Assembly: GCF_002287075.1 (NCBI RefSeq)
Contig: NZ_NSKE01000002.1
Coordinates: forward strand, 62,001-126,000
DNA: 64,000 nucleotides
Source of the DNA: Fodinibius salipaludis
GTDB lineage: Bacteria; Bacteroidota; Rhodothermia; Balneolales; Balneolaceae
Direction: 5' to 3'
Part shown: positions 37,714 to 39,657 of the stretch, in pieces
Layout: each line of letters starts with the position of its first letter
How positions within the stretch are numbered: the first letter of the stretch is position 1
Translations under genes and position numbers: made by a program
Notes under the pieces: generated by a model
What the model saw: the letters and a program-made list of their open reading frames with translations, nothing else
The model's database searches: none
What the model was told of the DNA's origin: nothing

Positions 37714-39657
37714 CTACTTTACAACTACGTTAGGACGCAATTTATCCATGGTTTTGGGACCAATGCCCCTGATATTTTCGAGTTGATCGATATGGGCGAA
37801 CTGTCCGTTGTGTTCACGATATTCAATAATTCGCTGGGCATAGGCAGACCCAATGCCGGGTAACAACTTCAGTAACGAAGCATCTGCCGTATTAATATTA
37901 ATAGGAAAAGCCTCTGAAGGCTCAGAATCATCCAAATCTTCATCACGCAGAAATTTTCTCCCTACCTTTTCGGAATTTCTCCACATCCCCGCCTGTTGCC
38001 GCTTTGCCTGCTCGGTATACTGTTTGAAAGCTCGCACCGAATCGGGGTGTTGCGCATAGTACTGCTCGTGCTGACCAAACCCCTGCTGCAGTAAGTGTTT
38101 GTTTAATGGTATGATTTTGCCCTTCTCCGTTTTTAGCCTCACATATGCCTGAAATGCACCATAACCGGCATCCGGGCGATCACCCGACGCTCCCTGCAGC
38201 TTCACTTCCCCACCGGATATTAGGTTCCGCAGATAACCCGAGGCTTCACGGGCATAATAGTCCGAGGAATCTTGCCCCGCATAAATACGCGGTACATTTA
38301 TACCCAGAAACTCCACACCGTATCCAAACCCCGGCAGGACCTCTATCGCAAACTCACCTCCGTCTGACACCTCCTTAACCGGGTACCAGTGATCCGGATC
38401 AATAACGGGAGCAGGCACATCGGCCTCTCGCTGCGCACGCCGCACAACCCCACTAAAGTCCTGATAGAATTGATTCGTAATCCGATCGGAATGAATAATA
38501 AGCAGATTTTCATCATTATTAACTTCGGCATTTTTTGAGAAATTATACGAACCGGCAACTGTTACCCCTTTATCGGATGGATCCGGATGTTTGGCATCCA
38601 CCAGCATAACCTTGTGATGCAGTTTCCGCATCTCATTAGCGGGAAGAATCATCCGGTTTTGCACCTTGGCTTCCGGTGATGCCCAGATATCGCCGTTGTT
38701 CTTATATCGATAATAAAACATCGGATCGATAACCCCGTTAAGTTCGATTTCTCCCGTGGCCGACATCTGCCAGATTGTTCTGCTGAGGGGTATACTCGGC
38801 GTAATTGCAAATGCCTGGAATCCAACATCATGCTGGGCTTCTGAACGAACCACCTCTACCAACCGATCCATAATACTGGGCTTGCTACCCGATCGGTTGA
38901 TAGGCGAAAAATAGAGTTCTACTTTCGTGTCATCCACAAAATAGGTGTTCTCACCCACGTACGATTTATCTTTGTGATATTTTGATTTTGCCGGATTGGG
39001 TGTTTCATCGTTATCACCCCACATCTGTTCAAACTCATGAAGATAGGCCTTGGCAACACCGCTATCTTTAATAATGATGGTGTTATTGGTATTATAGGCT
39101 CCCGTATACGTCAAGTTTGTTGATCCCGTCCAAACCTTATCATCATGAGGTGTGGGACTCAAACCATCAATAACTGCAAATTTATGGTGCATGTCGGCAC
39201 CGGCGTTAACCAAATCGTTGTCATCAATATCACCGTCGGGTTCATACACGTCCCCATCATCATCGATTGAAATAATACCGGCCTGCCGAAGTGTAACCCA
39301 CATAGCTGAATCAATTTCAGCTGCATCGGTTCGGTTATAATTATCTGTCACCACTCTTACCCTTACACCCCGCTTGGCCGCTTCCGCCAGTGCTTTACCG
39401 ATGCGCGGATGCTCCAGATCATAAATAGCCAAATCGATACTATGATTCGCCTCATCAATAAGCGATTCGAGCGTAGCCAGCAGGTCAGCGTTACTTTTAC
39501 TCATATTCCCAGGCAATGCCACTGAATAATCAGCCGGCTGATTAAAATAAACCTTGATCCATTCTACCGAACTGGTGTCCTGCAAAGCCCCTTTTGCCTG
39601 CAGATAGAGCGGCGACAAAATAAAAAAGCCACATAGTAGAAAGAGCCTGCCCTTCAT
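37714..39657 (-). CDS. Exported phospholipase D-family/SNase-like/helix-hairpin-helix fusion
   Basis: 647 residues, with a signal peptide (residues 1-21, cleaved near LQAKG). Two PLD-type HKD motifs are complete: H157-x-K159-x4-D164 with GSTN 178-181, and H347-x-K349-x4-D354 with GSYN 369-372. Residues 436-565 resemble a staphylococcal nuclease-like domain, but the positions of its catalytic Arg, Glu and Arg read GVEFLGINVPR and DAGYGAFQAYV, so they look lost. Residues 584-647 are a ComEA-type helix-hairpin-helix pair (LLPGIGSAYAQRI and IRGIGPKTMDKL) that binds DNA. A secreted nuclease is the best guess; lipid hydrolysis is the alternative. It is divergent from ftsB over about 80 bp. Confidence 0.88.
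   Translation of the reverse strand: MKGRLFLLCGFFILSPLYLQAKGALQDTSSVEWIKVYFNQPADYSVALPGNMSKSNADLLATLESLIDEANHSIDLAIYDLEHPRIGKALAEAAKRGVRVRVVTDNYNRTDAAEIDSAMWVTLRQAGIISIDDDGDVYEPDGDIDDNDLVNAGADMHHKFAVIDGLSPTPHDDKVWTGSTNLTYTGAYNTNNTIIIKDSGVAKAYLHEFEQMWGDNDETPNPAKSKYHKDKSYVGENTYFVDDTKVELYFSPINRSGSKPSIMDRLVEVVRSEAQHDVGFQAFAITPSIPLSRTIWQMSATGEIELNGVIDPMFYYRYKNNGDIWASPEAKVQNRMILPANEMRKLHHKVMLVDAKHPDPSDKGVTVAGSYNFSKNAEVNNDENLLIIHSDRITNQFYQDFSGVVRRAQREADVPAPVIDPDHWYPVKEVSDGGEFAIEVLPGFGYGVEFLGINVPRIYAGQDSSDYYAREASGYLRNLISGGEVKLQGASGDRPDAGYGAFQAYVRLKTEKGKIIPLNKHLLQQGFGQHEQYYAQHPDSVRAFKQYTEQAKRQQAGMWRNSEKVGRKFLRDEDLDDSEPSEAFPININTADASLLKLLPGIGSAYAQRIIEYREHNGQFAHIDQLENIRGIGPKTMDKLRPNVVVK

Follow-up and report, generated by a model that had tools for sequence, protein, structure and literature searches.

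Our analysis of the window, a stretch of 64,000 nucleotides from Fodinibius salipaludis, identified a gene for a protein in which a tandem-HKD PLD core is followed by a degenerate SNase domain and a ComEA-type tandem helix-hairpin-helix (HhH2). We consider it probable that this protein is an exported, and probably periplasmic, PLD nuclease whose dead SNase domain and HhH2 hold the nucleic acid. The recruited pseudo-nuclease is the unusual feature; an exported nuclease with a DNA-binding tail is of a known kind. The combination is real, conserved and apparently unstudied, is made of familiar parts, and is carried by many relatives of the salt-loving host bacterium. The features of the gene are as follows.

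37714..39657, minus strand: whole gene for the PLD(HKD x2)-SNase-HhH2 protein, 647 aa, ATG start (open reading frame, domain searches and homologues)
39595..39657, minus strand: probable Sec signal peptide, residues 1 to 21, ending in LQA with KG following (by inspection; aligned homologues have hydrophobic N termini)
38413..39564, minus strand: tandem PLD catalytic core, residues 32 to 415 (Pfam and predicted fold)
39166..39189, minus strand: HKD motif 1, H157-K159-D164 (alignment)
38596..38619, minus strand: HKD motif 2, H347-K349-D354 (alignment)
37960..38388, minus strand: catalytically degenerate SNase (OB-fold) domain, residues 424 to 566 (Pfam, 1snq alignment and predicted fold)
37717..37905, minus strand: ComEA-type tandem helix-hairpin-helix, residues 585 to 647 (Pfam, NCBIfam and hairpin motifs)

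Domain layout and predicted location

All Pfam matches on the 647-aa protein exceed the gathering score: PLDc_2 twice (E 4.4e-35), SNase at residues 448 to 560 (1.5e-9) and HHH_3 at residues 585 to 644 (3.2e-22). Together with NCBIfam matches they confirm the modules named in the initial annotation, and the signal peptide that it placed before them appears likely from inspection of the N terminus, MKGRLFLLCGFFILSPLYLQA, which resembles a Sec signal peptide. The architecture is not due to chance, because it is conserved end to end across dozens of genomes at 45 to 84% identity.

Sec export would carry the enzyme across the inner membrane. A search of the 647-aa protein for a T9SS sorting tail (PF18962 or similar) gave no match up to an E-value of 1, and the C terminus consists of HhH. 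Since a signal peptide is present and such a tail is absent, the periplasm is the likelier site, and release outside the cell appears less likely. One homologue (L021) has a lipobox-like N terminus (LASC), which suggests a membrane-anchored, lipoprotein-like version.

Catalytic core and accessory modules

Both HKD motifs had been judged intact, and they are indeed invariant in an alignment of 22 sequences and unvarying across 35 homologues. The core shows the hallmarks of the tandem-HKD PLD superfamily, namely, two HxKx4D motifs with GSxN within one predicted fold, and its two halves are predicted to form a single PLD-type active site. Metal-free cleavage through a histidine-phosphate intermediate is established for this superfamily, and the window protein would cut phosphodiester bonds in the same way, with no need for metal.

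Does the core act on nucleic acids or on lipids? Its best NCBIfam PLD model is the NucT nuclease (1.6e-14), with cardiolipin synthases far weaker (7e-4 and 0.17), but the NucT-type matches are partial, and the protein scores 53.9 bits against the cut-off of 297 bits for the NucT equivalog NF010492. Profile matches of the core in the PDB include the endonuclease 1byr and NucT (6ehi), and in PHROGs the matches were limited to a functionally uncharacterized PLD family and a nuclease of the SNase type. The full-length protein was modeled with a pLDDT of 85.1, and the nearest folds to the core are those of PLD3 and PLD4 (Z 31 to 32), which degrade nucleic acids. Serratia phospholipase D (7e0m) reaches a Z of 30.9, within 1 of PLD3 and counted as tied, so that the fold alone does not distinguish nuclease from lipase. 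The good fit of this compact bacterial enzyme would suit an exported lipid-directed enzyme, a phospholipase D or transphosphatidylase, with the SNase and HhH domains as adaptors or as anchors to DNA or matrix, as would the tandem HKD in a single chain, which is common among lipases. However, the protein has no lipid-binding module and is instead fused to two nucleic-acid-associated modules, and nuclease models score well above those of cardiolipin synthases; we therefore regard a lipid-directed enzyme as quite unlikely. The sequence models lean toward a nuclease, and the two attached modules point strongly in the same direction. Hence, a nuclease activity, on DNA or RNA, is favored, in the periplasm rather than in the extracellular space that had also been considered, while the biofilm remodeling role suggested with it found no support.

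The central region matches the SNase family PF00565 with 38.7 bits (gathering score, 21 bits) and adopts an SNase/OB fold in the prediction, in line with its first assignment. The isolated SNase-HhH2 part was modeled with a pLDDT of 88.5, and the SNase part of the model superimposes on staphylococcal nuclease with a Z of 17.5 and an rmsd of 2.3 over 132 residues. In the alignment to 1snq, R35 is replaced by E449, D40 by N454, E43 by R457 and R87 by A501. The loss of the catalytic Arg/Glu/Arg that the initial annotation had suspected extends to the whole family: none of the 35 homologues keeps the Arg35/Glu43/Arg87 triad of active staphylococcal-type nucleases, and the position of Glu43 is occupied by Arg in 19, Ser in 15 and Trp in 1, with Glu in none. 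The calcium ligand Asp21 is apparently lost too, as read by eye from a MAFFT alignment in a column outside the 1snq alignment. D463, S464, N519, Q536, D539 and S540 are nearly fixed in the family and are unrelated to SNase catalysis, and therefore the domain is presumably under selection for something else. That it serves as a DNA-holding module, as had been surmised, is supported by its conservation, its fold and literature precedent.

Both hairpins of the HhH tail are intact (LPGIG and GIGPK). The tail scores just above the cut-off of TIGR00426, the ComEA repeat region (53.7 versus 53.1 bits), and its closest relatives are the DNA-receptor domains of ComEA. HhH domains may also bind proteins or play a structural part. 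Three nucleic-acid-associated modules are conserved together across the family. We hypothesize that the SNase domain, although devoid of catalytic residues, keeps its OB fold and forms a nucleic-acid clamp with the HhH2 tail.

Such a clamp would probably allow a catalytic body that is acidic and adapted to salt to keep its hold on DNA when ionic strength is high. The net charge per residue of the PLD body is -0.060 in Balneolia and -0.017 in Crocinitomicaceae (Mann-Whitney p 7e-5), a contrast to be read as supportive only, because the sequences are related and phylogeny is confounded with salinity; the SNase and HhH2 parts stay close to neutrality in either group. There is precedent in DNaseTA, a secreted DNase of Thioalkalivibrio, which owes its activity in up to 4 M NaCl to the HhH2 tail; in the view of Alzbutas and colleagues, merely turning acidic is no option for the DNases of halophiles because DNA binding would be hindered (PMC4486849, PMC4777378). 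The legend to Fig. 2 of the second paper lists PLDc among the domains that occur with ComEA-type HhH2 (PMC4777378), so that a two-part PLDc-HhH2 fusion had already been glimpsed. A literature search, with most subscription journals outside it, found nothing direct on the three-part family. The claim of an undescribed type thus stands for the union of PLD, degenerate SNase and HhH2, for which this search gave no report, but not for the broader class, since secreted DNases with ComEA-type HhH2 tails are known in halophiles (PMC4486849, PMC4777378). More tentatively, these proteins may be a family of exported DNases in their own right, independent of metal and adapted to salt, whose DNA grip is a recruited SNase pseudoenzyme beside a ComEA-derived clamp. 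They would then represent a second, independently evolved solution to cutting DNA at high salt, with a PLD scaffold in place of a DNase I scaffold.

The likely role of the enzyme would be the degradation of environmental or imported DNA for phosphate, nitrogen and nucleosides. In sediments, where extracellular DNA is a major source of phosphorus, Bacteroidota are reportedly widespread degraders of environmental DNA (PMC8289736). An exported nuclease based on PLD could escape searches for the usual nuclease families and, if it is metal independent and salt tolerant, could be a useful reagent. The predicted function of its SNase domain would also make it a clean example of a pseudo-nuclease retained as a binding module.

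Distribution and genomic neighborhood

A search for the exact domain architecture showed that PLD-SNase-HhH2 is not a one-off but recurs in Balneolia and Crocinitomicaceae. The class-level sample (Balneolia) comprised 195 genomes, of which 48 carry the full architecture, one of them clipped by a contig end. The sample of Brumimicrobium's order comprised 249 genomes, of which 10, from Crocinitomicaceae, carry it, as counted from matches at an E-value of 1e-170 or below, with the remaining matches confined to the core. A homologue from Fodinibius/Aliifodinibius (L024) is 84% identical. When a maximum-likelihood tree was built from the PLD core, every full-architecture protein fell into a single clade (100/100) whose base is unresolved, and nested within it the Crocinitomicaceae members make up a clade of their own (100/100). 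This nesting suggests either that the gene was transferred from one lineage to the other or that it is of old origin.

Within the genus, the gene is present in 7 of 12 genomes. One genome (G008) retains an in-place remnant (L062, 1357-1857), flanked by the same FtsB-like and symporter genes, of which only N- and C-terminal pieces with stops are left; here the gene is in the course of being lost. The patchy presence and the broken remnant indicate that the gene is dispensable.

In Balneolia the neighbors are conserved and ordinary (FtsB-like, LptD-like, symporter and acyltransferase genes, named by inspection), the FtsB-like and LptD-like genes being divergent from the PLD-SNase-HhH2 gene; the neighbors in Crocinitomicaceae differ. 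At seven Crocinitomicaceae loci (L034, L035, L037, L039, L040, L042 and L044), the gene directly upstream consistently encodes a protein resembling what we take to be 2-phosphosulfolactate phosphatase (ComB). No functional operon was seen around the gene in the 21 flanked loci, no adjacent nuclease, nucleotidase or competence gene was recognized in them, and a scan for consensus promoters and terminators stayed at chance level.

These loci bear on a periplasmic enzyme of natural transformation, whose ComEA-like tail would let it encounter DNA entering at the ComEA/ComEC channel and trim or degrade this DNA. The ComEA type of the HhH2, the likely periplasmic location of a protein lacking a T9SS tail, and the presence in the genome of ComEC and a separate ComEA-like HhH protein are consistent with such a role, and NucT has been linked to transformation as well as to the salvage of purines (PMC5714352). 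Yet the gene has no linkage to competence genes in the flanked loci, and many relatives keep ComEA-like HhH proteins without it, which makes a dedicated transformation enzyme unlikely.

A defense nuclease directed against incoming phage DNA, similar to DrmC of DISARM, is extremely improbable. The PADLOC model of DrmC does match the PLD domain (E 2.9e-11), but this reflects the generic PLD fold, as the protein reaches 39.6 bits against the NCBI DrmC cut-off of 133 bits, an identity that we rejected; moreover, the protein is predicted to be exported and its neighborhood is conserved and unrelated to defense. We also rejected a defense island or mobile element, given these ordinary neighbors and the fact that no plasmid record covers the full architecture. 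Large Vibrio plasmids (records H1 to H8), including those of V. coralliilyticus, encode a distant PLD-like protein that matches the tandem-HKD core only (27% identity).

Comparison with known systems

The exported PLD nuclease proposed here has more distant relatives in which the tandem-HKD core is common, at about 30 to 37% identity, and is joined to other accessory parts. Two such proteins from Bacteroidota/Balneolota (L059 and L086) resemble it in their homologous core, their export and an OB-like accessory domain, but they lack SNase and HhH and carry an OB-like DUF5689 with an Fn3-like region at the N terminus and a T9SS sorting tail at the C terminus; L101 and L102 look similar by eye. 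DUF5689, presumably an OB fold, matches OB weakly and below threshold (E 0.0028). The same core is thus paired with OB-type domains in differing positions, as DUF5689 precedes it and SNase follows it. In L059 (1-4020), the T9SS-tailed DUF5689-PLD gene lies directly upstream of a gene for an exported EEP-family protein that seemingly ends in a T9SS-like tail as well, possibly a two-enzyme DNA-degrading pair.

PLD3 and PLD4 are lysosomal 5' exonucleases. They share with the window protein the compact tandem-HKD fold and, as predicted for the latter, nucleic-acid turnover outside the cytosol, but they have no SNase or HhH and are only 15 to 17% identical. Staphylococcal nuclease has the fold of residues 424 to 566, whereas its Arg35, Glu43 and Arg87 are all replaced in the window protein. 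NucT of Helicobacter pylori (PMC5714352) and Nuc of Salmonella have the PLD active site and sequence similarity to the HKD halves, but they are chains of about 155 to 180 aa with a single HKD and neither SNase nor HhH.

DNaseTA of Thioalkalivibrio sp. K90mix is likewise exported, has a C-terminal ComEA-type HhH2 tail and comes from a salt-adapted bacterium (PMC4486849, PMC4777378). Its catalytic domain, however, is a metal-dependent EEP (DNase I-like) domain and not PLD, and it has no SNase domain; its activity has been demonstrated, whereas that of the window protein is predicted. The resemblance between the two lies in design, not in family.
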